64,000 nucleotides of DNA from Nereocystis luetkeana (lineage: Eukaryota > Sar > Phaeophyceae > Laminariales > Laminariaceae): the NCBI GenBank assembly GCA_031213475.1, contig JARUPZ010000009.1, forward strand, positions 7,907,601 through 7,971,600, written 5' to 3'. Positions 1,079 to 50,957 of this stretch are shown here, piece by piece. The translations under genes were made by a program, and so were the position numbers. Below the pieces are notes generated by a model that was not told where the DNA came from, made no database searches, and saw only the letters and a program-made list of their open reading frames with translations. How positions within the stretch are numbered: the stretch's first letter is position 1; each line of letters begins with the position of its first letter.

Positions 1079-3391
1079 CCTTATCTCCTCGGTGAGTGCA
1101 TGTCGCCACCGCTGCTGTACAAGCAGTTGACCACTGTTGGAGCTTGTTTTAGAAAGAGTTTTACCCAAAATCAGGTATACCTGGTCATTTTTAGGCCAAA
1201 ATCAATTATACCAGAAACAAGTGCAAAACACACGCCAGGAGCCCTGCTATTGGCCAGACTGACATCGTCACTGATTTTGGTTCGAATTGGTCAAGGGTTT
1301 ACCTGATTTATCTACAAGTACTCTGTCTATAGCTTTCAACGTTCAACTGATTTGGGCCTATTTTGAACCAATGGTAGGGGCCATACGTACACAGTTTTTT
1401 CTCCGCGTATGCGTGTGTGGTCCATCGGTTGCACAATTCTTGTGTAGAAACTCGTACCAGGTACGTAGGTACACATTCATGCGTACACTCGTACGCTCTG
1501 TGCTTGTACGTACCAGTAGTACTTACGTATTTATGCATACATGTCGCACGGTGATTCCATTTTTCCTTCTTTGGGGTGTACGGCAAGTATGTCAGGAGAC
1601 CGCATTTTCACCCCTTGACGGACAGCAACTTTGCCTCGACATGTCTCGACTGACACCAAACTACTGTGGTACAGTACCTGTTAGGTTTTAGTTTGGAACA
1701 TCGGCCCTACATCCTTGACAGCGCACGTTTTACTCCTGATATCTTCGGTGTACGATGTACTTCAGTTGTTATGATGTGTAATCTGTTGTTTTCTATGACC
1801 TATACCCTAAATAAAACAAAATAATTCAGATTTGGGAGGCCACACGATATATATGTTGAGGCGCAGGTTTTTTTATATAGATCTCCATGGACTAAACGCC
1901 GATTATGGCGCGCGTTTTGTACTTGGTTTTAGTATGTAACTGATTTTGGCCCAAAAATCGCCAGGTATACGTACCTGATTTTGGTCACAGCCCTTTTTGA
2001 AATATGTACCACGTAGATGAAGCTACGTAGCTAGAGGTCGGCCGCCATAGTTGGGATTTTCCGCATCCCATTTGAGAACTATACCGTGCCAGTTGTTGAA
2101 GTCGCGACGACCCAACTCAATTCCGTTGCATTCTCCCAAACGTCGACTATGTACTCTTGATTGCACTCGCACATATTCGGCCCGGCCCACGTACCATATT
2201 TCAGGTAGAACCGATGACGATGAGCCACAGCCATCAACCGATGGCGACGGCAGGTTAAAAACAAGAGCTCATAGAAGTCAGAGTGGCCCCGTCGACGACA
2301 CGGAGGAAATTCAGAGGAATCCACAGGCGGGAGGAGTAGCGATGGCGAGGGCTATAGCCAAGACAGCTGTTGCGATGACGATCACCGGGGCCTGGTCGAA
2401 GAAACCTCCACTCGCGGGGATAACTTGCCATGGACGAAGACTCTTCTTGTGTAGGTTACGGCCTTTCAGCCATAGACGACAAGGAGGGGGGAAGGGGGTG
2501 AGGCGGCTGGCGCCTGAACAGTCGTGGATGATTACTAGGATTCTGATTAGTCGGGGGGAGGGGGGGATCAGAGCATCAGGGCATGTCTGTTTTCTATCTA
2601 TTGGATTGCGTTCATATTCGTTGTTTCCCGTGCTCGATGGTGTGAGTAATTTTGTTGGGATGTCCCTGACCCATGTGTAGTGGCATCTCTGTTCCGTTGC
2701 AGTGCCCGCAGGGTGTGTTTTGTTCAAAGCGCGTGTTTAGCTCACACAGGTTGCCACAATGTGATGCCCCCTCTTGTGTTCGAATGATGATACCGTCTTC
2801 GTTTTTGTATTCTGGCCATCAGTTGATGCTGGGAATTTCAATATCCACATCTCTGTGTCTGGCTGCTGCCTATATTGTAATTGTTTGTCGGCGAAAGCTC
2901 AAGACAGGGGGGTTACTAATTTTTGAATTACGTATGATACTCGCTCAACCACGACATGTGGGGAGTTGTTATACTGTTGCCTCATCGTGGCGCATTGGTT
3001 TAGAACTCGTCAAAGAGAGGCACGGGCTTCCCCGAAGCATACGCACGTAGATGCATTGAGCAGGGAGGAGGCAGAAGGACACGCAAGGGGTAGGTTAGGC
3101 GGGTACCACGCCGCACGGTCGGCATACTGTACCCATTGTTGTACATTACATGCCCGCAACCGGTGTTTGTATGGCGTAGAATAGGTTCGAAAGGCGTGGC
3201 AGATATAGGACATCGTGTGTAAACAACTGTCCACACAGGGCCAGTTGGATTGAGCAAACATGTAGTAGATTCATAATATAAAGCAAAATATTTGATGCAA
3301 CAATGTGTACTGTTTCCGCATATATATCTATAAATACAGGGGGCGCGTATGACTGTCAGCGTCTTGTGGCGGTTCACCGTACAAACCCACT
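1079..3391. other. No recognisable gene
   Basis: Several overlapping open frames but no domain I recognise. An acidic, Ser-rich peptide frame at about 2300-2450 and an opposing frame at 2079-2240 are exon-like in composition but have no convincing splice borders. The stretch holds one TACCAGGTA site (1455-1463) and two related palindromic forms near 1171-1180 and 1970-1988. Confidence 0.4.
1455..1463. other. TACCWGGTA scar candidate
   Basis: Exact TACCAGGTA flanked by CTCG and CGTAGG. Removing CCAGGTA would leave a plain TA. One of 15 exact copies in the window. Confidence 0.5.
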
Positions 3392-3965
3392 AGATGTCGG
3401 TGTGGTGGGTGCGTTTTGGACTGCACTGTAGGGTCGCCCTTTTTTGGGCACCCTCCAGCGGGTACGGTCGCATACCCTCCAGAGGGTTTTGGGGGGTGGC
3501 GTCAGCCTCCACAGCGTGCGCGCCGGAAAACTCTGTACGTCGATGTGGTGGGTCTGAAAATTGCCGCGCGATAGTGTCACCCAATTTTGGGCACCCTCCA
3601 GAGGAAAAGATATTCTGCCCTCCAGAGGGTTTCTACTGTGACGCCGGCCTCCAGAGCGTGCGCGGCCGACCACTCTGTACGTCGGTGTGGTGGGTCTAAA
3701 ATTTACCGCACCATAGTATCGCCTAATTTTGGGCACCCTCCAGAGGGAAAGATATTCTGCCCGCCAGAGGGTTGTTGTTGTGACGTCGGCCTCCAGAGCG
3801 TGCGCGGCCGACCACTCTGTACGTCGGTGTGGTGGGCCTAAAATTTACCGCACGATAGTATAGCCCATTTTTGGGCACCCTCCAGAGGGTAATATATCTT
3901 GCCCTCCAGAGGGTGTTTGGTGGTAGCCGATTGGCCACGTGTGTAGGAGTAGGAGCATCTAAAAT
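3392..3965. repeat. 142-bp tandem repeat, four units
   Basis: The motif ACGTCGGTGTGGTGGG recurs at 3394, 3537, 3679 and 3821, a period of 142-143 bp. Each unit carries two copies of the near-palindrome CCCTCCAGAGGG about 30 bp apart. Units 2-4 are very similar and unit 1 is more diverged. Both strands have open frames because of the repeat structure; no coding function is evident. Confidence 0.85.
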
Positions 3966-4539
3966 TTACGAGGCTCTCGACGCGTGCTATATATGCGATC
4001 GGGGTAGTAACACGTTTTATGCCACAACTATTTCTGACAGATCGGTAGGATCGTTTGTGGTATACCTATTTTCTACGCATAGGGTTTTGGGGTGTTCATC
4101 GGGGTTTGACTTGTAGCCCCTTCTCACAATAATTGTTTGGGTGAGGCATATACCTCATCGAGGTCAAATAAAAGCCCCAAAATATACAGGTGCTGCACTA
4201 CCCCTATCGTAGAACGCCTCCTCCTCCGTTTAGAAACCCCGTCAGTCATACCAGTTAGTTGGTTTTGGCCGCAGTATGTTACGATCCCTATCGCAGCACC
4301 CGCCAGGAGCTGTACGCAAAGCCACCCCCTCCTTTCCCCCATGAAACTACGGCCATGAATGACCCGAGCACCCCTTCTCCCCCCCCGCTCCCTTTGCAAG
4401 ATGTGGTCGTCGGAAACACCCTTTCCTTTGTGGAAACGACATTGATTGGACAATGTAACAAACCCCACGAGGTGTCGACATTATCTCGATCGGGTACGCC
4501 TAATGATGCGTTAGTGCTGTATATTTTTCAACATATGCA

Positions 4540-4585
<46 letters not shown>

Positions 4586-5448
4586 CACATCATTGGACGG
4601 GGGGCGTGGGAGAGAGGGTGGTGGCGGTTACCTGCTGTGCTGCAGACATACGTGTGTCGTCGTAACGATCGCCCTGCCCCTTGTTTCTATGAACCGAAGG
4701 TTGGTGAGATCGCACTCATACGCTTGTCCTGGTAGAGCTGTCTACTGCTGCTGTTACATGGAGTCTCCTACACTATATATATAGACAAACGGTGTCTCGT
4801 ACTATTCATAGCCATCGTTACTGCGAGGAAACGCCGAGTCGAGCTCCTTACCCCTGGACCAGCTTTGGGTGTTTTGCTTCGTCGAGCTTCGTGCTATTAT
4901 TACCGCAGTAGATCAACCACCCCAAACAATACCCACGGCAGATTGCGACGTTCTAGCTTTCACGGCGCGAACGAAGTGAGGAGCTCTTTCGAGATGCCTG
5001 AAGCGACCGACCTACAGGGGCCCAAACCGCAAAGAGGGTGACGGCCGTTACTAACACCCTGAGCTGAGCGAGCGCCTACTGCTGTAGCCGGAGCAAACCC
5101 ATCCTCATCGTGAGCTCCCTCCCTCCTTCCTCCCCTTCTTCCCTTTCGTTTAATTATTTGTTTTCCTCTTTGTCTTCGGGGAAATGGAAGAGCAACTAAC
5201 TACCCTGGTATGAAATAGACCAGCCACTTGTGTCATGAGGCTTACTGTAGTTCGGGTAGGCGGGCAATCCCTACAACGCTTACCGTGTTTTTAAATACCA
5301 AGCCCTGTCAACAACGTCAATTATTAATAGAGTACGTACATAATATTTGAAACGAACACCTGACGATGTCGGCACCAACAACAGACGTTTCATGCCGTAG
5401 AATTCTTTGTCCCTCTCACCCCCATTCCACCACACCTTGCTTGCTCAG
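3966..5448. other. No recognisable gene; one AT microsatellite
   Basis: No domain recognised. A (TA)n run spans about 4542-4578. The TATCGTAGAACGCCTC motif seen at 34.98, 35.07 and 36.97 kb also occurs near 4205. Confidence 0.4.
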
Positions 5449-5639
5449 CTCCTCCGCTTTGTGTCGAATTGTCGCCGTCAATGTGCAGGCCACCATCGAT
5501 CTGGAGCAAATTGACGGAGTTTTCGCCGGCCCCGCGACAAAGATCGGGCGGGATTGGTCCCTGCCCCCGGTTGTTCGCATGTCTGAGGTCAAGACCCGCC
5601 AGTTTCTGCCCGCGTGCTCCCAGATTACGGACGTATTCT
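5449..5639 (+). CDS. Candidate internal exon, weakly like the start of a glycolipid-transfer-protein (GLTP) domain
   Basis: Acceptor-like tract CACCTTGCTTGCTCAG at 5433-5448, then an open frame to a donor T|GTGAGAAG at 5639/5640. The 191-bp exon has single-base phases at both ends. Its C-terminal part, SEVKTRQFLPACSQITDVF, resembles the first helix of GLTP domains (x-T-x-x-FL-x-AC...F). That is pattern memory, not an alignment, and I found no following exon with the expected D-V-x-G-N motif. The minus strand is an equally good exon: acceptor CTCTCTTCTCACAG| and donor GCAAG|GTGTGG, with an unbroken frame. Strand and identity are therefore unsettled. Confidence 0.3.
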
Positions 5640-5724
5640 GTGAGAAGAGAGGAGGGGAGGGATGAACGGGAGTTTCGCGCCCTGACAATGGTCGAGCGCT
5701 CAACGTGCATAAATATATACTAAC

Positions 5725-5753
5725 ACACATATATACATACATACATACATACA

Positions 5754-5787
<34 letters not shown>

Positions 5788-5806
5788 CATACATACATAC
5801 ATACAT
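5725..5806. repeat. (CATA)n microsatellite
   Basis: About 80 bp of CATA tetranucleotides, interrupted by two ATATA variants. It generates long Tyr/Met/Cys-rich frames on both strands that are not genes. Confidence 0.95.
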
Positions 5807-6082
5807 GATCTCTCCGTAGTGCTGATTGAGCATAGTGCGAGTTGCCCGCTTCGTATGGTACCTGCAGGATCGCGTGCTGCGGAACAGATGGGACTCGCAA
5901 GCGTCGTGGCAGCTGTGCGGACTAGGGCCGGTCGCCGCTAGACAAATCGCCGGTACTGTTGACTGGTGGCCCATATTAGCACTCCAGCGGCCACCGGCAC
6001 TACCATACCGCTGAAAGCAAGACATGCCCATGCCATGCCCATGCCAGGAGGGGTAGCCTATGGCATACGTACGAGTAGCACC

Positions 6083-6091
6083 TACCAGGTA
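6083..6091. other. TACCWGGTA scar candidate
   Basis: Exact TACCAGGTA followed by a T-run. It lies just left of the MITE-P copy at 6119. Confidence 0.5.
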
Positions 6092-6118
6092 TTTTTTCTG
6101 AGGGTCCTCACTTTTTTA

Positions 6119-6208
6119 CCCTTTTAGGACTGGGGTTACGTTTATGGGGGAAACTATTGAGAATTTGATTGGTCTGCCCCCGAAAAGGGGAAGCAGTCTA
6201 CGAGAGGG
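6119..6208. repeat. MITE-P copy (degenerate)
   Basis: Starts CCCTTTTAGGACTG and has the central GATTGGTCTGCCCCCGAAAA segment, but its right end is mutated. About 90 bp, the family length. Confidence 0.6.
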
Positions 6209-6224
6209 AGAATCTCTGTAATCT

Positions 6225-6425
6225 CCCCCCCCTCCATATAAAACGGTTTTTAGTAGGATGCAGCTCACCCTTCATGCGACTCGCAAGACACATCACGGCG
6301 CTTCGCGCTTGGTGCAAGCAACGTCTGCCTGGTCGGTGAAAACCCGACATGCTCCGTCCCGGTATTGTAGGTACGCGAGGGTCTATGGTCATACGACTAC
6401 GGCCATGCATGAGATCGAGTACATA
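6225..6425 (-). repeat. G-tract repeat family copy (reverse orientation)
   Basis: Contains GATGCAGCTCACCCTTCATG near 6257, GCGCTTCGCGCTTGGTGCAA near 6299 and ACTACGGCCATGCATGA near 6396, followed by TACAC and a C-run. These are reverse complements of the blocks at 32577-32850. About 200 bp, no coding frame of its own. Confidence 0.75.
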
Positions 6426-7371
6426 TCTTCTATACAGTACACCCCCCCCCGTCACCGAAACAAAATAAAAAGTGTTTTTCAGAACGAAACGGACACTCAA
6501 ACCACGGCCTACAGCGCGGCACATCAGGTGCTGTTAAACCACTTCTTCAATGATACTGTACTATTAACCTTGAAAATAAAGGATAGGATCAATACACGAT
6601 AAAATCGTTGGGTAACTGATCCCACCCCGTCAATCGGAACAGTTTTGACCATATCAATGCCGTACCCCATTCGCAGCGCTCGTCGACGGCAGGATTGAAT
6701 CACCCCCCTCCCCCCGCACGGAGCATGTGAGATAGCAGCAGTTTCCCCTCTCAAGCGTTACTGCGCGCCTTCTCTGCAGTATAGAAACGGCTCAGGTTCC
6801 GGTAGGTTTTTCAACGAACTGACTGCTGGTGGGCAGTAACGAGACGTTTTTGCGAGAATACGTATGTAACTGCTCAAACGTCCGGCAAAAATCGAACGAA
6901 ACAACTACTGGTGGGTCAGATCGAGTTCACTGCGATAAAAAGTAAAAACAAATGAACATCAACTTACGGCAAACCGGACAACTAGTTGCCGGTGGGCCAT
7001 GTACACGTGAAGTGCAAGATCGTGTGTTGGTTTGCAAAATAAATGCTAAAAACTGGCGATAAGGCGACCGCTGTTTTATTAATGATGCAACGGGTTCACT
7101 CGAATTTTTGTGGTCCAAGATTCTAAAGTATCGCTGCAATCCTAACGTGATCCGCTAGTTCTCCCGTTTTCGGTGGTTATACCACGTACTACTAGTAGAT
7201 CAAACTGTCCTGTGTATGTGACTGCAACCACCCGTACTGGTGTGCCGGACTGCTCTATACACGAGGCGCTCAGTTTACGTGTAAGTGTATATTTATGTTC
7301 TTGTGTTGACAATGGCAGAGACCAATATTCTACCGGCGGACCTCCTGCTGGGGCCTTGCTCACCTACGGTG

Positions 7372-7416
<45 letters not shown>

Positions 7417-7433
7417 TTCTCTCCCTCTCTCTC
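7372..7433. repeat. (CT)n microsatellite
   Basis: About 60 bp of CT dinucleotides with CCCT interruptions. The Leu/Ser and Arg/Glu frames through it are artefacts. Confidence 0.95.
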
Positions 7434-7954
7434 CGGTTCGAAATCGTCTTTTGAGCAGGTCCCGATCTGTCGGGGTGGTGCTGTTGTTCGAAGAAATAGG
7501 TTTGCCAGAACAAAAGAGAAACCACCATCGTGCAAGGGCCGCACGTGCACTCTCCGCACCGCGAACAAACAACGCCACCAGTTTAGCCGGGATTTCGAGT
7601 ATTGTTCAGCCAAACATCTGCCGGCTAGATTACACAGATCCCCAACTCGGTGATCTACACATTTTCCCGGGGCAGCTAAATAGGTGCGATCCATACGATC
7701 GACGCAAGCCCATGTTTCTTTTCCGGGTGAAGTCGTACCATCTTCATGGTCAGTGCTGTTTGTAGAACATGGCTCGAGGGTTGCAGAGGGTTACAAAGTT
7801 TGATCTTCATGTACGCGAAGATCCTGCACGCAACGGTTTGGTATCGGCAGGATATCAGGATCTATGTGATCTACCATAGTGCTGCGGAGTGTGATCTGCC
7901 CGATCCGTGGAAGGCTGTGAAACCTGGCCGCTCCTCGCGGCAAATAAATGCGGA

Positions 7955-10793: not shown

Positions 10794-11033
10794 TACGTGG
10801 GGGCCATAGTTAATAGGACCTATATATATGGTACAGGCAAAAAAACTATACCAGGTACCTGGTATACATTTTTTTCTATTTTTACTATTACGGGGGACCA
10901 AAGTTAATAGGACCTATGGTTTACATAGAAAACTATATATTTAACCATTTTTACTAACAATATTTGGTCCTATTAACTATGGTCCCCCGTAATAAACAGA
11001 TTAGGTCCTATTTACTATGTATGGTTTCCCGTA
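10794..11033. mobile_element. MITE-T with a second MITE-T inserted in it
   Basis: Outer element: left arm from 10794 (TACGTGGGGGCCATAGTTAA), right arm to 11033 (CTATGTATGGTTTCCCGTA). The inner element, 10889-10991, is a clean 103-bp copy running TACGGGGGACCAAAG ... CTATGGTCCCCCGTA. The TA at both edges fits a Tc1/mariner-type target duplication. Neither copy codes for protein; a transposase would have to act in trans. The outer left arm also carries a double TACCWGGTA scar. Confidence 0.85.
10849..10864. other. Double TACCWGGTA scar inside a MITE-T
   Basis: TACCAGGTACCTGGTA: two overlapping copies sharing a TA (10849-10857 and 10856-10864). The corresponding part of other MITE-T copies is a plain ACCTATATATTT segment without this sequence. 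Confidence 0.7.
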
Positions 11034-12435: not shown

Positions 12436-14587
12436 TGTACCAGGCGCATGCTATGGGGTGGGGTTACACTACGATGAGTGAGGGGTGGGTGGGTGGGTTC
12501 GGACTTCGATGCGATGTGTGCTTCTACGGCAAATCGGAGAGCATGCGAGTTGCATGCAAGATAGATGCAAGTTGCAGCATGCGAGGAGATGCAAGTTGCA
12601 TGCAAGCTTGCATGCAACTGCTTCAATGAACGAAATAGGGCGCAATCTACATGCTTTTTGGGTAGGGCTGCTGGGGGGTGAGGGACGTACTCGAACTCGG
12701 ATGCGATGTCTTCTACGGCATGGTGGCACCTCATTTATTTGTGGTCCCGACGCTCCTCGCTTGGGTAGTTACATGCACCTCACCCAAAAACAGATTTTTG
12801 ATGAAAAAAAATGAAGTTAGCCCGACGACCTATCCGGCGATCGACTGCTAAGTTTTCACAGGGGTTCGATCGTTATTCAGCAATTCGTTTCCTCCACAAG
12901 AGCTAAAAGGATGCCACATAACGCCGAACTATTTTGCGGAAGGCCTCTCGACCAGATATTTTCTCGAAAACACCTGGCTATGTTCGTCGTCTTGGCAACC
13001 TGCCCGTCCTGAAAACAAATGGTTCGAGCGCTGACTAAACCATTCCCCCCGTGGCTTCGAACTCGCCGCTCTCTGTAGCATGTATCATACCACTAACGAT
13101 CTACCAGGTACAATATAGCAAATCTTTTAAAACCACGTATACTTCGCGTTCCAATGGTATAGCACATGCCTCACTGGTGAAGCACAGATATTTCGGAACA
13201 AAACGCGCTGCGAGTATCACTATTGCAGCGCGCCTCACAATGCAAGGGTCCGTCGCAAAGGGTAGAATGGTCCTTTTCGACAAGCGAGCTGAATGGCGAT
13301 ACTTTGCCACCCGAACGGCTGCCTGGTTGCTCGTCTCCACTACGGCTGTGGAAGCCTCGATGCTCCCTTCCCCCTGTCGTCTTGTTATTTGGCGCCGTAT
13401 ACATGGGGTCACACACTGGTTCTGTATAGCGTGTTTTGACTTCACCGCACCTCAAGGTGTGTCCTATAAGACTTGTACGTGTTGACTTACAGCAGTGTAC
13501 CGAATTCCAGCATCGCTCTCTGCTTGCCCCCCCAGTGTGTAATGTATTTGGCGTGCCTTGTAGAATATCGTCCCCATCACCACCACCACCTCCTCCACCA
13601 TCAGCGCCACCACCACCAGCACCACCACCACAAGCACTAAGATTGCCCGGATCAACCGGCAGCCAACTAGTACACGCCACAAACACAGGAGGAAGAAGGG
13701 GTTATAAGGGTGGGGGGGGTCCGGGCGGGGGGCGTACTTGTTTGCTACTTGCCTGTAATCACTTGGCCATTGACCACGCACCCCTTCCGAAGCGGAGCAC
13801 CCTTCTTGCCCCTCCTAGAGAAACAGCATTTGAGCGCTCATTACCTTTTTTTCCAGGCATATATATATATGAGCTGGGAGAGACGGGGGGGTGTCAGACG
13901 TCACGTGCGTATTTACCAAATTCTGAGCTTTGTGGTACCTTCCGCTCGCTTCGAGAGCAATAGCTCGTCCCTCCTGACATTTTAATGGCGACGCGGTGCC
14001 GGAGTAGACGCACTTGAAGACCGTCGTCAGCCGCGCCCGACGACCTCGACGAGGCCATGTAACAGAGCGCAGCAGTGTCGATCAACAACATGCGGCACGA
14101 CGCATCACGGCGCTTTTTTCCAGTTGGCGTGGCCTTTGTTTGCTGAGGATTACTGGGGGTCGTAGTAACAGCCCGGAGCGGAACAAGGCGGGTTGGTTCG
14201 TAAAACGTCGCGTTCTGCCTTCCTCATCCGCCCACCAAACATAGCTCGCAACCAGAGGGTCGTGTGCAATCGCTTCTCCTGCGGTGTGGCTGTCTCTCCT
14301 CTGGCCTTCTGCGTGCGTTTGTACGTGAATATCGGCAGGCATATGGGCGACGCACGCTGAAATAGGGGTGCAACGGACTTTCCGAGGCTTCCACACTTGT
14401 GGAACTCCCTATCTCACGCGAGGTCTAACCAAACGTCAATCGAGACGTGGGCCAATGCCGACGCGAGTCGACGAGGCAATAAATTGTCGAGGTCGTTTCC
14501 CGAGAACAAGGAAAAGGCACGAACCGTACTGGTGGGGGGGTGGAGGAGAGCCCGCCATGTGACCCCGCGGGTCTGACTTACGACTGC
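12436..14587. other. No recognisable gene; low-complexity tracts
   Basis: Contains GCATGC-rich near-palindromes at 12541-12620, a CCA/CCT trinucleotide tract at 13572-13640 and one TACCAGGTA site at 13102-13110. Open frames overlap on both strands with no recognisable domain. Confidence 0.4.
13102..13110. other. TACCWGGTA scar candidate
   Basis: Exact TACCAGGTA between ACGATC and CAATATAGC. No paralogous empty site is visible in the window. Confidence 0.5.
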
Positions 14588-14848: not shown

Positions 14849-14958
14849 TTCGCGGGGCCATACCTGGTAGTAAATAGGGCCTACAGTACACACGAAAACC
14901 TATCTATTTCGCTATTTTTACTAGCAGTATTTGGTCCTATTTACTATGGTCCCCCGTA
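14849..14958. mobile_element. MITE-T copy carrying a 7-bp scar
   Basis: Left arm CGCGGGGCCATACCTGGTAG, right arm TTTACTATGGTCCCCCGTA. The right arm predicts CCATAGTAAATAGG for the left arm; the left arm instead has CCATA, then CCTGGTA, then GTAAATAGG. The copy is 110 bp where intact copies are 103 bp, so exactly 7 bp are extra. Confidence 0.85.
14861..14869. other. TACCTGGTA scar with internal control
   Basis: The element's own opposite arm shows the pre-insertion state. The extra bases are CCTGGTA following a TA. Confidence 0.8.
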
Positions 14959-21599: not shown

Positions 21600-22100
21600 C
21601 TTCTGCGTGTTACAGCCGGGTACCATTCCTGGTTATGCTCGGTGAAACGCGTGATGGATACCCGGGTGGATACCCCGGTATGTCGTAAGTGCCCTACCTG
21701 ATTATGTTCAGTCATAAGCGGGCAGATACACGGGTGGATGCCCAGGTACATCAAGAGCACCATACCCGGTTACCTTCGGTCCTACGAGGGCATACAACCG
21801 GGTGGATACCCACGTACCAGGTACATCGAGAGCGCGGTACCCGGTTATGTTCGGCCATACGCGGGTAGATACCCGGATGGATACCCAAGTATATCGAGAG
21901 CATCCTACCTCATTATGTTCCGTCATACGAGGGTAGATACTCGGGTGGATACCCAGCTACATCAAGAGCACCACACCCGGTTATCTTCGGTCCTATGTGG
22001 GTATACAAGCCGGTGGATACCCAGGTACATCGAGAGTACCGTACCTGGTTCTGTTCGGTCACGCGCGGCTAGATATTCGGGGGAGTACCTAAGGTTTATC
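21600..22100. repeat. 68-bp minisatellite, about seven units
   Basis: Corresponding points in GGTGGATACCCAGGTACATC lie at 21672, 21740, 21808, 21883, 21951 and 22019, giving spacings of 68, 68, 75, 68 and 68. The single 75-bp unit contains TACCAGGTA at 21815-21823, so its extra 7 bp are the inserted CCAGGTA. Confidence 0.9.
21815..21823. other. TACCAGGTA scar in one minisatellite unit
   Basis: Neighbouring units read ACCCARGTACATCGAG; this one reads ACCCACGTA, CCAGGTA, CATCGAG. A clean 7-bp insertion after TA, verified by unit length. Confidence 0.8.
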
Positions 22101-28400: not shown

Positions 28401-29311
28401 ATGACGATCGGGCAAAAAGCGCTCTCCTAGGCGTAGACAGGTCGTGTTTGGAGGGTGGCGGATATTGCCACGTTAGAGCAGGTTCGACGGTTGATAACCC
28501 GCCCGCCAGGGCAATGGCGTGGGGCGCGTGTCGTGCCGGTACCACGGATGCAGAACGTAACCCTTTTATGGCTGCAGTCCTATTCTGGGGACAAAACCAC
28601 TCGAATTCTAATACCTGGTAGGTTTATCCCAAAAACGGGGCTGCAATCCTGAAAGGGTGAAACTGTACCAGTCTGGCCAGAAGAAAATAAAACAAAAAGG
28701 TGGCCTATTCCGACATTTTTTTTTTTGTTGCACCATCTAAACGTTCCTTTTATTAACGGCTAGACCAAGCAAAGCACAACGCAGGTTTGCTTCCGTAGTA
28801 GATAAGTGGTGACCCGGAGAACTGAGAAGCACAAGCGATGTCGAAAATAAAATCGCCTGCACTAACCCCACGACACCAACACCAAAACCAAAACATCAAC
28901 CAAGAATTGGCCGGAAGGACGACGACAACGTCAGCAAACGATAAAAACGGCACATGAACGTCAAGGACACCACCACCACCACCACAAACACCACCGCCAC
29001 CACCACCACCACCGACATCACCACCACCACCACCACCACCACCACCACCACCACCACCACCACTACCACCACCACTATCGCACGTCAGCTTGCAGAGAAG
29101 TAACCGCTCGCCACCAGAAACCACCACCGCACCCCAACTCACAGAGAAGTGACCGCTTGCCACCATCTCGGGCGGTGGTGGTCCAGGCTCAGCCCGAACA
29201 TGCGGTCCACCCCGAAGAGCGTGTTCAGCGAGAACAGGCCGAAGCACGACAGCACCAAGTAGTGGACGGCCATTAGCCCCCTCCCCTTCGCTCCCGCGGG
29301 CGGAGGAGACC
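25354..29311 (-). CDS. Rhomboid-family intramembrane serine protease (four exons, partial)
   Basis: Rhomboids cut membrane proteins within the bilayer using a Ser/His pair in a six-helix core. Four minus-strand exons join in phase: 29311-29143, 28174-28083, 26950-26817 and 25442-25354. In order they give a first helix (LMAVHYLVLSCFGLFSLNTL), the pre-helix motif PRWWQAVTSLLLHGDQHH, the HLMGNMFNLVIFGK helix-2 motif, an EED loop, the SLGMLVSFVACGVVSSVV helix, and GASGAIFGL holding the GxSG active-site serine (exon 3), then RLRKLIEAAVFGWFVVE (helix 5). All three introns have GT...AG ends with phases 2, 1 and 0. The 5' exons (signal or transit region) and the final exon with the catalytic His of helix 6 were not located; the gene may continue left of 25354 or be truncated. 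Introns hold G-tract repeats and homopolymers. Confidence 0.85.
25527..25770 (+). repeat. G-tract repeat family copy (diverged)
   Basis: Starts with GTCATGCATGGCCGTAGTCG after a GGGAGGGGAGGGG stretch and ends with GGCAGCATCGAATGACTTGA. Intronic to the rhomboid gene if that gene is intact. Confidence 0.7.
25793..25895 (+). repeat. Two partial G-tract repeat copies
   Basis: CATGCATGACCGTAGTCGTA at 25797 and ATCATGTATGGCCGTAGTCG at 25870, separated and followed by G-runs of 10-20 bases. Only the G-proximal ~30 bp of the family is present in each. Confidence 0.65.
25900..26100. repeat. Cluster of G- and A-homopolymers
   Basis: G-runs near 25902 and 25988 and A-runs near 26057 and 26080, each about 15-24 bases. 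These frameshift any reading through the region and are prone to assembly error. Confidence 0.9.
26572..26672 (-). repeat. G-tract repeat family copy (reverse, partial)
   Basis: A C-run, then GGCGTTCTAGGGGTGCGAGG and ACTACGGCCATGCATGA. Within the third rhomboid intron (25443-26816). Confidence 0.65.
26817..26950 (-). CDS. Rhomboid exon 3 with catalytic serine
   Basis: 134 bp. Acceptor CCGTCGCAG|GAATG, donor GGGAAG|GTGTGT. Encodes the helix leading to SSCGASGAIFGLYSV; Ser in GASG is the nucleophile by family knowledge. A 95-bp duplication of the adjoining intron (26961 and 27056) begins just upstream of the acceptor. Confidence 0.9.
26952..27140. repeat. 95-bp tandem duplication ending in G-runs
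   Basis: GGTTGACCCCGCGACGCGAC starts at 26961 and again at 27056; each unit ends GCGATCGCGGC followed by a long G-run (about 24 and 18). The second unit has a few substitutions. Confidence 0.85.
28083..28174 (-). CDS. Rhomboid exon 2
   Basis: 92 bp. Acceptor CCTTCACCAG|GCTTC, donor CTCTAG|GTGGGA. Encodes LLHGDQHHLMGNMFNLVIFG and the EEDMGSLG turn. The first base completes the Leu codon of exon 1. Confidence 0.85.
28561..28657. repeat. MITE-P copy carrying a 7-bp scar
   Basis: CCCTTTTATGGCTGCAGTCC ... GGGCTGCAATCCTGAAAGGG. Length 97 bp, against 90 bp for the copies at 8651 and 34217. The centre contains TACCTGGTA (28612-28620) where siblings have a plain AAGTAGTTTGTCC-type junction. Confidence 0.85.
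28612..28620. other. TACCTGGTA scar in MITE-P
   Basis: Extra CCTGGTA after TA, matching the 7-bp length excess of this copy. Confidence 0.75.
28975..29070. repeat. (CCA)n trinucleotide tract
   Basis: Pro/His/Thr- or Gly-coding on either strand. It lies in the first rhomboid intron and is not evidence of a glycine-rich gene. Confidence 0.9.
29143..29311 (-). CDS. Rhomboid exon 1 (first one found)
   Basis: Acceptor TTTTTCAACCGGCAG| precedes 29311; donor TCTCT|GTGAGTTGGG at 29143/29142. Carries helix 1 and the RPRWWQAVTSL motif; ends two bases into a Leu codon. The 5' edge is inferred; an in-frame ATG at 29273 is an alternative start. Confidence 0.75.
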
Positions 29312-30690: not shown

Positions 30691-30800
30691 CACCGGAAAA
30701 CACTTTCGAGAACCGAAGTCTCGTTTCGGGGACAAACCAGTCAAATCCCACAATTCCAAGCAGCTTGCCCATCAAAACGAAACTGCTGTTCTGGAAGGTT
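30691..30800. repeat. Degenerate MITE-P copy next to an intact one
   Basis: GAACCGAAGTCTCGTTTCGG and GACAAACCAGTCAAATCCCA match the left arm; the right arm is eroded (ACGAAACTGCTGTTCTGGAA). Confidence 0.5.
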
Positions 30801-31944: not shown

Positions 31945-31953
31945 TACCTGGTA
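31945..31953. other. TACCWGGTA scar candidate
   Basis: Exact TACCTGGTA between GATA and CAGCACTC, about 50 bp right of a G-tract repeat copy. No empty-site comparison available. Confidence 0.5.
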
Positions 31954-33346: not shown

Positions 33347-33366
33347 TACCTGGTATGTACCAGGTA
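33347..33366. other. Pair of TACCWGGTA scars
   Basis: TACCTGGTA at 33347-33355 and TACCAGGTA at 33358-33366, two bases apart, together forming a 20-bp inverted repeat. Confidence 0.6.
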
Positions 33367-36212: not shown

Positions 36213-36543
36213 TACGGGGGACCATAGGAAATAGCATCTACGGTGCACACAAAAACCTACATACTTACCCATTTTCACTGTAACGGGGGGCCATCGTTAA
36301 TAGGACCAAACATAGTTATTCCGAGGGACCATAGTTAACAGGACCAAATATTGTTAGCAAAAATGCTCAAATATATAGGTTTTTATTTATACCATAGGTC
36401 CTATTAACTATGGTCCCCCCTTATAGTAAAAATGGTAAAATATATACCTCGTAGGCTTTTATGTATACCATAGATTCTACCAGGTATTAACTATGGCCCC
36501 CCGTAATAGCATTATTCGGTCCTGTTTGCTAGGGTCCCCCGTG
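36213..36543. mobile_element. Three MITE-T elements nested in one another
   Basis: Outer element 36213-36543 (TACGGGGGACCATAGGAAAT ... GCTAGGGTCCCCCGTG). Inside it a second from about 36281 (AACGGGGGGCCATCGTTAAT) to 36505 (CTATGGCCCCCCGTA). Inside that a third, about 36319-36422 (CCGAGGGACCATAGTTAACA ... CTATGGTCCCCCCTTA). Divergence differs between levels, implying repeated rounds of transposition into the same family. The middle element also carries two scars, TACCTCGTA (36445-36453, one base off) and TACCAGGTA (36478-36486). Confidence 0.8.
36478..36486. other. TACCAGGTA scar in a nested MITE-T
   Basis: Consensus arm is GGTCCTATTAACTATGG; here GATTCTA, CCAGGTA, TTAACTATGG. A 7-bp insertion after TA. 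Confidence 0.8.
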
Positions 36544-40607: not shown

Positions 40608-40679
40608 CTTTCTTGCGCTGACTCTCCGTGATTTTCATTTCATTTTTTCTCTTCCTCTTCCTTTTCTGATTGATAAGCC

Positions 40680-41669: not shown

Positions 41670-41689
41670 TACCTGGTATATACCAAGTA
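41670..41689. other. TACCTGGTA scar followed by a one-base variant
   Basis: TACCTGGTA (41670-41678), TA, then TACCAAGTA (41681-41689). Confidence 0.55.
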
Positions 41690-42777: not shown

Positions 42778-42829
42778 ATGGCGTCGACGGTAGGACGTGA
42801 GATTCTGAAGGGCGAGGTCCGTGGTTCGA

Positions 42830-43142: not shown

Positions 43143-44162
43143 TCGGGTGCAAAGTTTTCCTATCAGACAGGGCATTATTCCACAAGAGGGGACGGGGAGT
43201 ATTTTTTCCTGTCCAATATTTTCGGTTTAATTGCCATTGTTTTTGCTGTTCTGCTGTGCCGTGCTGTGCAGTCTCTTTCGTACATAGGAGTACAGACATA
43301 CAGCATATCAAAAGAAGAAAATAAGTGCACTACCCGGGGTATGTACGTATGTACGACTTTGAGCGAGTGGAGCGGGCGGAAGCGCTCGCGACGCGAAACG
43401 TATGCCGCGTCCGAGCTGTTTTCTCCTGGAGCATGGCGGCGGGACGCTTGACATTACCAAGTCGGCCGTTTGCAACAACTACAAGTATGAACACAATCGT
43501 AAAGAACTACATTGAAAAACGGACCTCTGTCCGCTTTGCATGGTTTGATGTATTTTTCGTTCCTGAGCAAACGTAGCGGGCGGCGTAGGCCGCCCGCGGA
43601 GCGAAGCGCGGTCGCATGTGCCTCGAGGCACGAGGGAAGTATGAATGGGCTCTGTCTGTCTGGCCTCCTGGCGTGGTCGCCGTTACACCTCTATGTACGA
43701 GTAAATTATGTATTTTTGGTTTGCAAAATAGGATGAAAGCGGTGCTAATTTTGCGACGAAATTAAAAATCAAGGAGAGAGCGACGCATTCTGAGCACTAA
43801 CTTTGCCGAGCTGGCAAACGAGGGCCACGGTGAGCACCGGGCTTAACGTGAGGCGGTCGACGGGGCTGACTGTGGCCGAGAGGGAGGATAGCTTCACCTG
43901 GACCGAATCGGTTGCGAGATGGTCGCGAGTGGGGCGGGCGGAATACCAGGCTGAGAGAGAAGCTCTTCTGTTCGATTATTTTTTTTTCTTCTTCTTTACC
44001 GGGTGTAAGGTGTTCCAATCAGGCAGAAAATTACGAAACGAGAGGAGACGGGGATTTTTTTTTTTCTTTCCGGATTTTTCGGGGGTTTTTCATTTTTTTT
44101 TGCTGTCCTGCTGTGCCTTGCTGTGCTTTCTCTTTCGTACATACGAGTACAGATATAGAGCA

Positions 44163-44171
44163 TACCAGGTA
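44163..44171. other. TACCAGGTA scar in one copy of the 1.08-kb array
   Basis: Sister copy near 43300 reads ACAGCATATCAAAAGAAG; this copy reads AGAGCATA, CCAGGTA, TCAAAATGAG. A 7-bp insertion after TA, about 25 bp before the junction with the inverted unit. Confidence 0.8.
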
Positions 44172-47100
44172 TCAAAATGAGGAAATACAAGGTTCTTCGC
44201 TCCGCGGGCGGCCTACGCCGTCCGCTACGCTCACTCAGGAAGGAAAAGTACATCTAATTATGCGATGTGGGCAGAGGTCCATGATTGAATATGTTTTTTT
44301 TTTTTTTATGATTGTAGTTGCAAACTGACGACTTGGCAATGCCAAGAGTACCGCCGCCATCCTTCACAAAACAACAGCTTGGACGCCACATGCGCTTCGC
44401 ACCCCGGGCGGTACCGCGCTTACTACGCTCGCTCACATGCCGTACGTACGTACATACCCCAGGTAGGGTATTCATTTTCTTGTTTGTAAATGCTTGTTGT
44501 ATGTACGAAAGAAAAATCACAGCACGGCATAGCAGCACCGCAAAAAACAATGAAAATATAACCGCAGATTTTGGGGAGAAAAAAAACACCCTGTCCCCTT
44601 ATGTACTATTTGATAAGTTTCTGCCTGGTTGGAACACGTTGCACCGATAAAAAAAGAAGGAAACCATACAGTAGAGCTCTTTCAGCCTCGTACGCCGCCC
44701 GCCCCTCTCGCGACCACCTCGTCACCAATTCGGTCCGGGTAAAGCTTTCCTTACTCTTTGTCACAGTGAGCTCCGTCGTCCGCCTCGCGTGAAGCCCGGT
44801 GCTCATCGTGGCCGCCGTTCGCCTGCTCGACAATATTGGTGCTCAGACTGAGTAGCTCTCTCTTCTAATTTCAGCCTGGTCGCGAAAATATGTACCGCTT
44901 GAATCCTGTCTTGCAATCCCGAAAGACCCTCATACCTCGTACATACTCTATCAAAAACCACAAATGGAGGACAGACAGAGCCGATTCATACATCCCTCGT
45001 GTCTCGAGGCACACGCAACGCCTAGCCACGAAAACGGCGACCACGCTCCTTGCAACCCCTCCTCCACCCGCCAGCACCCGCTGACACCCACGACGGCGAT
45101 GGGCTCGCCCACAGTACCGTGCTCGGAGTACACGCACGCACACGATTGAAATAAAGAAAAAAGAAGAATAATCGAGAGTGCCAAGAGAAAAATAGAGGAA
45201 ACACCAAACCTCTGGAAAGGTCCGACAAGTAATAAAATGGGCGATTTCCAAGTGGGAGCTCTGAGGGGCCAGGGGTGTACCAGCCGAGCACGCTCAGAGA
45301 GTGACATATCTGTAAGTAGTTCTATATACTGTACCCTACCTGATGTATGTACATACGTACGACATCCGCGACGCGAAGCGTATGGGGTGTCCGAGCAGTT
45401 TTTCCCGAGGCATGGCGGCGGGAGTCTTGGCATTATCAAGTCGCTAGTTCGCAACTACAATCATAAAAAAAATAGAATCAATCATGGACCTCGGTCCTCT
45501 TCGCGTAATTTGATTAATTTTTCCTTCCCGAACGAGCGTAGCGGGCGGGGTAGGTCGCCCACGGAGCGAAGGGTCGTGCAGAAATACTTACAGATCTCTG
45601 ACCTTCTGAGCGTGCTCCATTGGTACATCCCTTGCCACTTAGAGCTCCCACTTGGAAAATCGCCTCCTTTTATTACTTGCCTGAACTTTCCAGCAGGAGT
45701 TAGGTTTCTCCGTTTTTCTTGGCACTTTCGTTTTTGTTTTTTTGTTTTTTTTGTTTCTTCTTTCGTTTCGTGTGTGTGTGTACTGGGAACACGGTCCCGC
45801 GGACGAGCCCATCCCTGTTGCGGGTGTCAGCGGGTACTGGCCGGTAGAGGGGAGGTCGAAAGGAGCGCGGTCGCCTCTTTCGTGCCTAGGCGTCGCGTGT
45901 GCCTCGAGACACGAGATAAGCATGAATGGGCTCTGTTTGGCCTCCATTTGCATGATTATATCGAGTCTGTACGAGTATATATGAGTATTTCGCGATTGCA
46001 AGGTAATCGTCAAGTGGTGCTTATTTTTGCGATCGCGCTTGAAATCACATAGGGATCTACCCAGTCTGAGCAAAAATATTGTCGAGGTGGCGAACGGCGG
46101 TCGCGGTGTGCACCGGGCTTGACGCGAGTCGGGCGACGGGGCTCACTGCAGCAGATAGCAAGGGAAGCTTTACCCAAACCGAATCGGTGGCGAGGTTGTC
46201 GCGAGAGGGGCGGGCGGCGTACGAGGCTGAGAAAGAAGCTCTGCTGTTGTTGTTTTTTTTACCAGCAAGGTGTTCCAATGATGCAGGAAATTATTACCGT
46301 GGTACATGAGAAGGATGAGGATTTTGTTGTCTTTCCAAAAATTTCCGTTTCATTGGCATTGTTTTTCGAAGATGCTGTGACGTGCTGTGCCTTCTCTATT
46401 TTCGTACATACAGCATATTCGAAGAATTAAATAATTAATCTAGGTGGGTTAAGTACGTAAGAACGGCAACCGCCCGCGTTGCGAAGCGTATGTGGCGTGC
46501 GAGCTGTTTTTTCATGGAGCATGATGGTGGGACTCTTGCCATTATCAAGGAGGCAGTTTACGACTACGATTATAGATAATATTGTTACAAACATGGACTT
46601 CTGTCCGCTTCGCACATTAATATAATGTACTTTTCCTTCCTGAACGAACGTAGCGGGCGGCGTAGGTGGTATCTCACGATCGGAACGTGCTCGGTTGGTA
46701 CATCCCTGGCCACTTAGAGCCCCCACTTGGAAATCGTCTCCTTTCATCACTTGCCGGACCTTTCCAGGAGTTCTCTGTTTTCTGTATTTTTCTTGGCCCT
46801 TTCGGTTCTTTTTTCCTCTCTACCTTCTTTCGTTTCCTGTCCGTGCGTGTACAAGGAGCACGGCACCGCGGGCAAACCCAGCGCCGTCGCAAGTATCAGC
46901 GGGTGCTGGCGCGTAGAGGGGGGGTTGAAAGCAGCGCGGTCGCTGCTTTCGTTACTAGGCGTTTCGTGTGCCTCGGGACTCGAGAGAAGCATGAATGGCC
47001 TCTGTCTGGCCTCCACCTTCTGCATATTTCGATTAGGTGTGTACGAGTATATAAGGGCCGTTCGGGATTGCAAGGTAACTTTCAAGCGGTGCTTATTTTT

Positions 47101-48139
47101 GCGACCGGGTCGAAGTTCACAGAGGGAGCTACCGAGTCTAAGCAACAACATTGTCGACCTGACGAACGACGGCCACGGTGAGCACCGGTCTTAACGTGAG
47201 GCGGGCGACGGGGCTCACTGTGGCCCAGAGTGAGGAAAGCTTTAACCGGACTGAATCGGTGGCGGGGTGGTCGCGAGACGGTCGGGCGTACGAGGCTGAG
47301 AGAGAAGCTCTGCTGTTCGACTTTTTCCTTCCTTGACCGGTATGAGGTGTTCCAATCAGGCAGAAAAGTGTTACATGAGAGGGACGGGGATTTCTTTTTC
47401 TCTCCGAAAATTTCGGCTGCCTTTGCATTGTTTTTGCAGTGCTGCTGTGCCGTGCTGTGTTTTCTCTTTCTTATATACATCTTATCTAAAGAAGAAAATA
47501 AGTACCTAACATGGGATATGTACGTGCGTACCGCATGTGAGCGAGTGTGAACTGCCCGCGTTGCGAAGGGTATGTGGCCTCCGAGCTGTAGTAGTAGTTA
47601 CGTATTTGGTATGCCTTCATTAAAATAAGACATGGTAAAAGCATAGTGAGCATATAGTGATAGTACAGGAGTGTTCCCTCAGGAATGCCGGTATCTACCA
47701 GCCCGAAATGCTGGCCCTACTGCCGCAACAACCTCTACTCGTACACTTATTTACATTTTTATATGTCTCATAAGGTAGGGCAACACAAATTGTACGGGCC
47801 CTTAACCGTGTCCAATCTGTTTTCCGATTTGTTGTTGAAATCTTCGGTGTCTTTTTAGTAAAAAACATGTTAGTTTTTTAGCTGGCGCTTGAACCATGCG
47901 GCCGAACGGCTGAAAAGCAATCAGTCGGCCCCAAAACGGTCGTATTTCCCGGAGGCGTGGTGGCGGGACTCTCGCCATTATCAAGTCGCCAGTTTGCAAC
48001 CACCTTCGATCATCATAAAAAAACTATACTTCGTATTCAATCATGGACCTCGGTCCGCTTCGCAAAGTAATTTGATGCACTTTTCCTTCCTGGGCGAGCG
48101 CTGCGGGTGGCGCAGGCCGCCCACGGAGCACAGCGCCTT

Positions 48140-49429
48140 GTAGATATCTATACGAAGTATATATGTATTATTTATATATATACAATCCTTCGCGGCTGAG
48201 AGCGGAGCATTCGCTTCCGATTCTCAACGTTTCGGGTTGAAAATAGGCGGGATTACAGACTCCTTAGCTTTCCCTGGCTTCTCGCTTGCTTTTCCGGCCG
48301 CTTTCCTCGAGGATCGTGCTCGTCGGGTTCCGACGGGTGTTCTCCCGTGCGGGCATATCGGGGCGCCACCGACGAGTGCGGCGACCCCGAACTCGAAGGA
48401 TCTTGACTGGGGCGAGGAGACACGGAGGTTCTATTTTCTTTGGTCCTGGAGATTTGTTTCGCTGTTGTTGCTCCGCGAAGAGCTTATTGTGCAGGCTCTA
48501 TCTTTGCTTTTTTTCTCTCCAAGATTCTGTCTCTAGGCCTTGCTGATGCTGCCGCTCTCTCCGGACTCCCTTGCTTTGCCAGCCGCCATCGACCTCTTCG
48601 ACCCTCTCGGTCTTGCCTTACTCCGTGGCTGCCTTCCCTTGCCCCTCTCGCTTTCTGAGCCGTCTACACGCCTCTTCTCGGGATATCGCGCCGTTCTTGG
48701 TACCAGATCGTTGGATATCCCGGTGATTTGGTGTTTTTTAATTCGGCGCTCCGTTTGTTTTCACCGGTGGAATGGAATGAACGTTTTTGGAGAGTATGGA
48801 TTTGACGGGGTGTTGTGAGGTCGAAAAGAAAAAACATGATAAATCACATCCGAAGATATCATACAGATGGTCGTACGCTCCTGGACTGTCTACTACTGCT
48901 GCAAGTCTGATCGCTGCAGGCGCTTCATTATACTCGTACTACATAACCAGCAGTACAGTACTTCGGAGGCGTTCTACTTCGAATACATACGTAGAAGGCT
49001 TTGTTTTCGCCGGTCGGATTGAATGAAGGTTGTCGGAAAATAGCATTAACTCGGCGAGTCCGATAAGAAGAACCAATTAATCGCATCGGAGGATATCATA
49101 CATGGTCGTATTTGCTCGGGCTGTCTACTGCTGCAAGGCCTTATCTATGGGGGCGCGGTGGATACTGCGCTGCGTGTGCTTCACGTATATTCAACATATT
49201 TTGGGGTTCACACTGAGAATTGTCCCGATGCTCGTAGTGCACTTCAAGGTTTTCAGGTTGTTCTGTATTGCCGATCGATATCAGGTATCAGGTGTTCGAT
49301 ACTGCTCATACTCTCAGCATCTCGGACATATACTGCGATTTCTGCCTGTAGTCATGGTTGTGTTCTTTCTATAGATTATGCGCGTATACAGATACATACA
49401 GTACGCGTACCGCGTCCTGTACTCGCAGT
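48140..49429. other. No recognisable gene
   Basis: An AT-rich stretch near 48150-48185, then open frames (for example 48237-48536) without recognisable domains. ATCGGAGGATATCATACATGGTCGT near 49085 repeats ATCCGAAGATATCATACAGATGGTCGT near 48848, a diverged ~200-bp direct repeat. Confidence 0.35.
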
Positions 49430-49620
49430 AATTCTCGCATCCCTACAATGCCGCGACGAAGCTTGTCGGGTTTTCACCGACGAGGCAGACATTACTTGCA
49501 CCAAGCACGAAGCGCCGTGAGGTGTTCGTCCAGTCGCATGAAGGGTGAGCTGTATCCTACGATAAGAACCGCTTCTGAGGCGGACTTGCAAATGGATGAC
49601 AGCTTCTATGAGCTAATTTA
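49430..49620 (+). repeat. G-tract repeat family copy lacking its G-end
   Basis: CGCATCCCTACAATGCCGCG through GGGTTTTCACCGACGAGGCA, GCACCAAGCACGAAGCGCCG and GCATGAAGGGTGAGCTGTAT to GGATGACAGCTTCTATGAGC. The left ~60 bp with ATGCATGGCCGTAGTCG is missing. Confidence 0.8.
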
Positions 49621-50399
49621 ATTTCCGGTGAGCCACTTCCAGAGACAGCAATGGGAGTCCTGTGTAACTGCCTTACCATGACCACTACGTGATACGACGA
49701 ATTCCCTTGTGCGGATTGAAGGTTCTTCACCTCGCACAAATGGTCTAACTCGACGACCAGCTTCGGCGACCGCAAAAACAAAACAACCATAAACGGTACC
49801 CTGGTTGTCTAGTTCACGTAGTGAGCGGCATGTTTTACAGTGCTGTTGTCACCCGACGCCAACCCAACCTGTATCAAATAGAAGGGGTAATCGACGGAGG
49901 AGGAGGGGGGGAGCAGCCGTCCCTGCAGTGTGGGCGAAGAAATCGATGAGGAACCTTTTTTTACGCTAACGCGCTGAACAAAAACATGTGACGGTGAAAA
50001 GGTGTAGAATCCAAGAAATACATGCATCCCAGTAGACATTGAATATAATACCTGTATTAATAGTGAAAAGCGATGAGGTGCCACTTTGCGGCGTTGAGAC
50101 CGACTACTGCCTGCGACAAAGCCTGGTCTTTCTGGTAACTTCGACTAATGCCCGGGTTCTTGTGCCGTTCTGGTTGAAAGTGCCCATTCTACTGGGGGGA
50201 TCATTCGATTCGCGATATTCCGTTAGGTTCGCTGTGTTAGGGCGAAATAAACTCATGCAAGCGCTTGGTGTGTAGCCATGTGACTTATCTCCTATACTTC
50301 GGAAGTAAATGAGTTGACTACTTGTTTACCATTTCTCCCCTCAAACACTTCTCCGTGTGAAACTATTTTTCGGCAAGAGTAGGCTCATTTTATGGTTTC

Positions 50400-50700
50400 G
50401 GTAATCTGGTCTCGTCTCCGTTTTTCTACCCTGGACAGCACAGTCGAAATGTTCAACAGCTCCCACGCTCAGGACGGAACACGTTTCTCACTTCCCTGTT
50501 TAATACCCTGGTACATCTCTTCCGCACTGATCTGGTCTTGTCCAATTTTTTTTATCCAGGACGTCACAGTCGATACTTCCAACATGTTTCTGGCTTCCCT
50601 ATTATATACCCTGGTACGTCCATATAGCATTGACCTGGCCTCGTCCCAATTTTATATCCAGGGCGGCACAGTCCATGTTTTCTACAGCTTTTCTAAACCG
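50400..50700. repeat. ~130-bp tandem repeat, three units
   Basis: Units start near CTGATCTGGTCTTGTCC and contain a CACAGTCGAAATGTTCAACA-like segment and ATACCCTGGTAC near the end. Diverged. Confidence 0.75.
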
Positions 50701-50948
50701 AATGTCTGAGCAAGAGCATCGCATTCATACTCGGGTGTGTGTATGCTGATATTGTACCTCAAGATTAACCTGCTCAATGTCGGCACCATGACCTCGAAAA
50801 GGAGGATTCCTAGCACCAGCTTCTGCATAAAGTTGCTACTAGTTGTAGTACAAAACGACGTTGTCGCCTATAGCAGTATATGTGAAACACGCTTTACGCG
50901 CAACGTGATACGTTCTGAGCGAAGAGATCGACGGACGCCCTTAGTGTA

Positions 50949-50957
50949 TACCTGGTA
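50949..50957. other. TACCWGGTA scar candidate
   Basis: Exact TACCTGGTA within GTGTATACCTGGTATGAAG. Confidence 0.5.

Follow-up and report, generated by a model that had tools for sequence, protein, structure and literature searches.

What process has left the same nine bases, TACCWGGTA (W, A or T), over and over in the genome of the kelp Nereocystis luetkeana? The question arises from a 64-kb stretch of contig JARUPZ010000009.1 (positions 7907601-7971600; here called the window) in a 465-Mb assembly, a stretch whose setting is eukaryotic, with brown-algal markers in Pfam. An earlier note on the window listed 15 copies and read them as scars, CCWGGTA added to a TA by the excision of a Tc1/mariner-type element. 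All 15 coordinates are correct. The motif is a constant 7-bp insertion at TA, it occurs on five of the six contigs sampled, some copies are recent, and the process that makes them chooses its targets. The element, its tips, the stagger, its superfamily and the excision step we infer; excision is placed here because 264 kb holding 55 scars gave no source element.

A repeated insertion at TA, its targets and its age

TACCWGGTA is far more abundant than chance allows. The DNA sampled was the window plus the next 200 kb (together 264 kb) and 50 kb taken as 10-kb stretches from five other contigs, 314 kb in all. The window holds 15 copies, against a mean of 0.44 and a maximum of 2 in 100 dinucleotide shuffles. 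The next 200 kb holds 40 (1.1-1.7 expected), and the five other contigs hold 3, 1, 2, 3 and 0, a total of 9 where 0.3 was expected. The excess is found both in the window and in the DNA of the further contigs and amounts to 64 identical scars in 314 kb, or about 1 per 4.9 kb, 57 of which are independent once paralogous flanks are removed. Four pairs of scars lie within 25 bp of each other, all inverted. Positions 50958-64000 of the window have none.

The core stands out only between TAs. When CCWGG was counted with each of 16 flanking dinucleotides (each with its reverse complement), TA alone was enriched in the window (15, runner-up 2), and over 314 kb, TA had 64 and the next best 5. The control TACCSGGTA (S, C or G) occurred 4 times in the window against 0.56 expected, once in the next 200 kb and never in the 50 kb, and so shows no excess outside the window. 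Among 32 TA-flanked odd palindrome classes in the window, TACCWGGTA came top with 15; TAGGWCCTA was second with 9, within sequence like MITE-T, one of two families of miniature inverted-repeat transposable element (MITE) here, the other being MITE-P. Finally, an agnostic scan of 9-mers in the window, restricted to words with at least 7 copies and with low-complexity and periodic words dropped, gave TACCAGGTA the most independent contexts of the words listed (12 clusters for 15 copies). TACCAGGTA is the reverse complement of TACCTGGTA, and the two are thus a single double-stranded sequence. Because of this, the A and T forms are no evidence about mismatch repair, and the argument that the earlier note built on them is empty.

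The motif also turned up in a bacterial file. Contig JALZWD010000061.1 (L011), filed under a bacterial metagenome-assembled genome, carries relatives of MITE-T and MITE-P. Three scars lie in 8 kb of it, and one is inserted, as 7 bp, within a MITE-T copy. The whole metagenome-assembled genome has 5 matches, 3 of them on this contig, against 8 for a reversed-pattern control, and so has no excess. JALZWD010000061.1 is probably algal contamination, because the MITE families of the window occur there.

That the motif is an insertion is seen in the repeats that carry it. Scarred copies of MITE-T, MITE-P, a minisatellite and an array are 7 bp longer than siblings with a bare TA. Removing the scar scores at least as well as any deletion of the same length at 14861, 36478 and 44163 and, for 14 bp, at 10849 plus 10856, which form one double scar in a MITE-T arm that the earlier note did not list as such. 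The register is ambiguous at 28612 and 21815, because some alternative deletions score higher there (Table 1). Thus, the exact insertion of CCWGGTA into TA claimed by the earlier note stands at the first three sites and is uncertain in register at the last two, and alignment of unrelated repeats bears out a constant insertion centered on TA. At 41670, a relative at joined coordinates 109460-109544 keeps a 17-bp gap after the scar is removed, and therefore that relative lacks more than one scar-like unit.

A comparison of repeat copies made without reference to the motif points the same way. Over 264 kb (alignments of at least 50 bp at 70% identity or more, with a low-complexity filter that left no 3- or 4-bp events), 17 of 35 clean 7-bp indels were TA...TA insertions, 9 of these 17 being CCWGG; at random positions, the TA...TA background is 2%. 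In the window alone, TA...TA accounted for 5 of 8 clean 7-bp indels and 3 of 54 at other lengths; among those five, the event at 36476 is the scar at 36478 read in a shifted register, and the one at 44612 does not resemble a scar. No other TA...TA class is as large as that of 7 bp, and in no other does a single word dominate.

The scars share a target beyond the TA itself. Paralogous sites were dropped for this count, which kept 57 of 64 sites (60 of 67 when JALZWD010000061.1 was included), and half-sites adjoining another scar were excluded. In the 106 remaining half-sites, T at +6 from the TA was found 56 times (26.9 expected; p = 1.5e-9) and A or T at +7 was found 89 times (56.1 expected; p = 2e-11), while A at +1 was avoided (7 against 20.6 expected). 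The signature was first seen in the window (T at +6 in 14 of 26, A or T at +7 in 22 of 26) and was replicated independently outside it (42 of 80, p = 2e-7, and 67 of 80, p = 7e-9). Moreover, it is two-sided. When whole sites adjoining another scar were excluded, 49 remained: T at +6 was present on both sides at 12 (3.2 expected), on one side at 26 (18.6 expected) and on no side at 11 (27.3 expected). Oriented on CCAGG, T at +6 was present upstream in 29 of 49 and downstream in 21 of 49.

Control words were compared in the same way. The signature was missing at TACGAGTA, TACAGTA and TACCATA. TACATA/TATGTA leaned mildly in the same direction (T at +6, 130 against 107.3; A or T at +7, 252 against 224.1), as did TACCGTA among the 11 control words (T at +6, 28 against 22.3 expected). 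Some small sets leaned likewise: T at +6 against expectation was 9/4.1 for TACCTGATA, 5/2.5 for TACCSGGTA, 5/3.0 for TACGAGGTA and 11/7.6 for TACAAGTA, and TACGAAGTA had A or T at +7 in 16 against 10.6. We conclude that the preferred target is roughly WA-N5-TA-N5-TW. A two-sided preference is the mark of a dimeric integrating enzyme and gives a new argument for a transposase-like origin. Since each scar supplies a TA at 7-bp spacing, the inverted doublets may follow from the same preference.

Comparison of paralogues shows that the scars are both old and young. Of the 55 in 264 kb, 25 have a relative that spans the site; the better match was to the empty form at 14 of these and to the scarred form at 11. 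Downstream of the window on the same contig, a 13.7-kb tandem duplication (joined coordinates 126291-153693; 98.27% identity) has 7 indels of at least 4 bp between its copies. One is an exact 7-bp TACCTGG insertion at TA, empty in the other copy, whose joined flanks align over 102 bp at 100% identity; a second 7-bp indel is a TA microsatellite. Three further scars are common to both copies. Because scars are both common to and private among near-identical copies, and because the relative of the scar at 50949 is empty, the scarring process is long-running and was active until recently. We note that the copies differ, too, by a 6-bp TACAAGTA insertion near 144533 and that the duplication is useful for dating small indels.

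Origin of the scar

We propose that TACCWGGTA is probably the repaired excision footprint of a TA-duplicating cut-and-paste DNA transposon with a 5-nt stagger. Duplication of a TA target is typical of Tc1/mariner elements, and this duplication, together with a footprint of the overhang type, makes Tc1/mariner (IS630-type) the likely superfamily. The element would have near-palindromic tips, CCWGG...CCWGG, and would duplicate TA on insertion. Its transposase would cut the two strands 5 nt apart, one at the tip and one within the element, such that each flank would keep TA and a 3' overhang, CCWGG. The two overhangs would pair with each other at 4 or 5 of their 5 bases, which would make repair uniform, and end joining would seal TA-CCWGG-TA for the same net gain of 7 bp each time.

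The length of the stagger is where this proposal departs from the earlier note. The constant insertion at TA and the target signature agree with that note's Tc1/mariner excision scar, but its 3-nt overhang with CC(W)...(W)GG tips is less likely. A 3-nt overhang predicts TACCATA and TACCATGGTA, and neither is in clear excess overall. TACCATA was mildly high in the window alone (14 against 8.7 expected, then 20 against 23.9 in the next 200 kb and 6 against 5.7 in the 50 kb, or 40 against 38.3 in 314 kb) and lacks the target signature, and TACCATGGTA occurred once against 0.4 expected in 314 kb. A 3-nt cut repaired as a mosaic of 3 plus 2 tip nucleotides would equally read CCWGG but is less likely. 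Some possible products of aberrant repair were in mild excess over 314 kb (TACCGGTA, 10 against 3.9; TACCAGTA, 18 against 11.4); TACCTA stood at 110 against 95.6.

Several results weigh against an excised element. As the earlier note said, no credible source element is in the window. Besides one rejected candidate, no inverted pair of TACCWGG tips was found in the 264 kb that holds 55 scars, in a search for tips at most 12 kb apart with at least 11 matches in the next 20 nt, which diverged tips or longer elements would escape. A wider scan for inverted repeats of up to 3.5 kb over the same 264 kb gave no element with such tips, a scan of 322 kb with three Tc1/mariner motifs gave no signature, and Pfam assigned none of 20 open reading frames (ORFs) of the window to a Tc1/mariner family. 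The footprint is also unusually uniform, whereas published ones vary, and the accessible portions of the footprint descriptions compared give no 5-nt stagger. Finally, TA...TA insertions of other lengths exceed background too, mainly at 6 bp (10 of 26 over 264 kb, with words such as TATTAATA and TACAAGTA; 4 of 31 at 5 bp), and so 7 bp is the commonest class and not the sole one. In pairs of high identity (alignments of at least 150 bp at 88% or more, microsatellite-like indels dropped), TA...TA made up 2 of 3 indels at 7 bp, 3 of 4 at 6 bp and 2 of 3 at 8 bp, some of them simple repeats, and 1 of 12 at 4 bp, 0 of 2 at 5 bp and 0 of 4 at 10 to 12 bp. Other TA footprints may exist.

The rejected candidate, 1178-1967, is the sole inverted pair with TACCWGG at both ends that was found in the window and the 264 kb. 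The match between its arms continues well beyond TACCTGG, and similar outer sequence recurs in relatives at joined coordinates 177929, 178595 and 240688. Together with 1147-2002 in the window, these form a family with long inverted arms that hold the near-palindrome TACCTGG...CCAAAATCAG.

Perhaps no full element was ever present at these sites. An enzyme, such as a domesticated or truncated transposase or one acting from elsewhere, would then have added a constant CCWGGTA at preferred TA targets in tens of thousands of events, and the scars would create TA targets at 7-bp spacing that attract more. The lack of a credible source among 55 scars in 264 kb is as this explanation would have it, as are the uniform sequence, the strong target signature and the four inverted doublets. 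We know of no enzyme, however, that adds a constant 7 bp without an element. Footprints of the same layout that derive from elements are documented (PMC3878927; here and below, published work is cited from the accessible portions of each paper), and we regard the explanation as unlikely. Slightly less credit goes to the footprint of a TA-duplicating element outside Tc1/mariner, from another DDE superfamily or one not yet described. The TA duplication and the 7-bp product were observed, whereas the superfamily is proposed, and the +6/+7 signature is absent from the accessible portions of the descriptions compared, but TA target duplication points to Tc1/mariner, as in a table for rice (PMC4423477).

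Two explanations do without excision or insertion by an enzyme. An over-represented near-palindrome in many independent contexts could be a selected functional binding motif that was never inserted. This is highly improbable and strongly contradicted, as individual MITE, minisatellite and array copies carry the 7 bp while their siblings have a bare TA, and as one copy in a recent duplication has a scar that the other copy lacks. Least probable of all is that a few scars were copied with the repeats that carry them or arose by local slippage. Some scars are common to paralogues (11 of the 25 with a spanning relative fit the scarred form better), which would agree with copying, but 57 of 64 sites are independent after paralogous flanks are removed, and slippage would not yield identical 7 bp across unrelated contexts.

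Other words and features of the window

The scar has relatives and look-alikes nearby. TACCTCGTA, TACTTCGTA and TACCCGGTA (Table 1) are also 7-bp TA...TA insertions, and therefore the class is somewhat wider than CCWGG. Other words were rejected as members. TACGAGTA is enriched (12 in the window against 1.3 expected), clusters with the CCWGG scars and in 4 of 12 cases lies within 30 bp of a TACCNGGTA site, yet it lacks the +6/+7 signature. So does TACAGTA (23 against 5.6 expected in the window), which has the layout of the Sleeping Beauty footprint and which one MITE-T copy acquired by substitution, not insertion. TACGACTA is mostly a repeat family, and TACCTCGTA at 44933 was not counted as an insertion, its array siblings reading TACGAGTA.

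Table 1. Scars, related words and other features (window coordinates unless marked as joined)
Feature	Position	Context	Relatives or score
Scar TACCAGGTA	1455..1463	inside inverted-repeat element 1147-2002	no spanning relative listed
Scar TACCAGGTA	6083..6091	TACGAGTA begins 13 bp upstream	
Double scar TACCAGGTACCTGGTA, first	10849..10857	MITE-T arm	14-bp deletion top among 84 same-length deletions
Double scar, second, inverted	10856..10864	MITE-T arm	
Scar TACCAGGTA	13102..13110		no spanning relative listed
Scar TACCTGGTA	14861..14869	MITE-T copy; bare TA in siblings	deletion top among 121
Scar TACCAGGTA	21815..21823	75-bp minisatellite unit; next two units 68 bp	4 of 76 alternative deletions score higher
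Scar TACCTGGTA	28612..28620	MITE-P copy	2 of 104 alternative deletions score higher
Scar TACCTGGTA	31945..31953		no spanning relative listed
Scar TACCTGGTA	33347..33355	inverted pair with 33358	
Scar TACCAGGTA	33358..33366	inverted pair with 33347	
Scar TACCAGGTA	36478..36486	MITE-T arm	deletion top among 92
Scar TACCTGGTA	41670..41678	within stack TACGAGTACCTGGTATATACCAAGTA	
Scar TACCAGGTA	44163..44171	array copy	sibling near 43310 has bare TA; paralogue at joined coordinate 98329 also scarred
Scar TACCTGGTA	50949..50957		empty relative, 99% identical over 100 bp, without exactly these 7 bp
Variant 7-bp insertion TACCTCGTA	36445..36453	MITE-T arm, about where the 10849 copy has its double scar	
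Variant 7-bp insertion TACTTCGTA	48027..48035		
Variant 7-bp insertion TACCCGGTA	52539..52547		
TACGAGTA sites	6070, 22639, 23026, 34377, 40841, 41664, 43696, 44142, 45970, 47042, 47736, 48931		
MITE-P copies	8650, 10045, 23079, 28558, 30799, 34216	CCCTTTTAG tips; TTAA-like flanks at 30799	
Decamer AGAACGCCTC / GAGGCGTTCT	4211, 27970, 34988, 35076, 36740, 36985, 48966	7 copies in 6 contexts; ATCGT precedes several	
ORF, 605 amino acids	53172-54989	repeated EsV-1-7 cysteine motifs (Pfam)	
Copia-type retrotransposon	57224 to joined coordinate 64203	gag, integrase and reverse-transcriptase domains in ORFs between 58564 and 63293 (Pfam)	long terminal repeats 99.1% identical over 456 bp

Other features of the window are of several kinds. 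From its tips and flanks, MITE-P may be a piggyBac-type MITE. The Copia-type retrotransposon is young, because its long terminal repeats are nearly identical. No transposase domain was seen in the ORF with EsV-1-7 motifs; in Ectocarpus, a Tc1/mariner transposase with an EsV-1-7 domain is described (PMC12477816). The window gave no tRNA and no RNA family at gathering score. Viral contigs gave no match to the MITE-T and MITE-P patterns; a 17-mer had 10 matches there, about chance by our own estimate, and TACCWGGTA was in 0 of those 10 loci.

Known footprints and significance

How the scar compares with known footprints bears on what is new about it. The footprint of Minos, a Tc1/mariner element, has 4 nt between the TAs; the stagger proposed here, like that of Minos, is longer than that of Tc1 or Sleeping Beauty, but the footprint of Minos is 1 nt shorter and differs in sequence. 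The internal eliminated sequences of Paramecium have TA boundaries. They resemble the scars in their great number (PMC3464196), each bounded by TA, but they are removed by program in a ciliate, and nothing here indicates such a process. Sleeping Beauty and Frog Prince add C(A/T)GTA at TA, so that duplicated TAs flank an odd near-palindrome whose middle base is A or T, and their net insertion comes from repair of short 3' overhangs, all of which resembles the present scar (PMC3878927). Unlike their 3 nt between the TAs, however, the scar has 5, is dense over the sampled genome and had no source element found in 264 kb.

Other elements leave nucleotides of their tips. The range stated for Tc1/mariner footprints is 2-4 bp (PMC7913693), and Osmar5 and Ppmar2 leave 1-4 staggered nucleotides (PMC9632168). 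Stowaway MITEs leave mosaics made of pieces of their tips, in some of which the TAs are 5-6 nt apart, e.g., TACTC...AGTA, and re-insertion at an old footprint is described at one site (PMC1925063). The scar shares with Osmar5, Ppmar2 and Stowaway the arrangement of TA, tip nucleotides and TA, with 1-4 nt kept per end in those elements, but their footprints vary by event, and here one 5-nt sequence dominates. Its 5 nt between the TAs, read as putative tips, go beyond the superfamily range (PMC7913693) and fall within that of Stowaway mosaics (PMC1925063). In potato, StMSH4 carries a 7-bp footprint of a terminal-inverted-repeat element for which no superfamily is named in the portion available (PMC10763545).

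Searches of open-licence papers found no description of this footprint. TACCAGGTA and TACCTGGTA occurred in none of them, and one of two shorter words occurred in one unrelated paper. In Ectocarpus, 17 Tc1/mariner families with 11,912 copies are reported, and the words footprint and excision do not occur in the accessible main text of that transposable-element paper (PMC12477816). We conclude that the uniformity, the density and the target signature are new and that length alone is not, because some Stowaway footprints have 5-6 nt between the TAs.

If the scar is an excision footprint, past excisions can be read and counted in this genome. Extrapolated from 314 kb, and supposing an even spread over the 465-Mb assembly, the total would come to about 95,000 scars. 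Copy number conceals the mobility of cut-and-paste elements, and scars would give rate, age and target choice directly. Moreover, if true, a 5-nt stagger with self-complementary tips would widen the known range of such cleavage and account for uniform repair.

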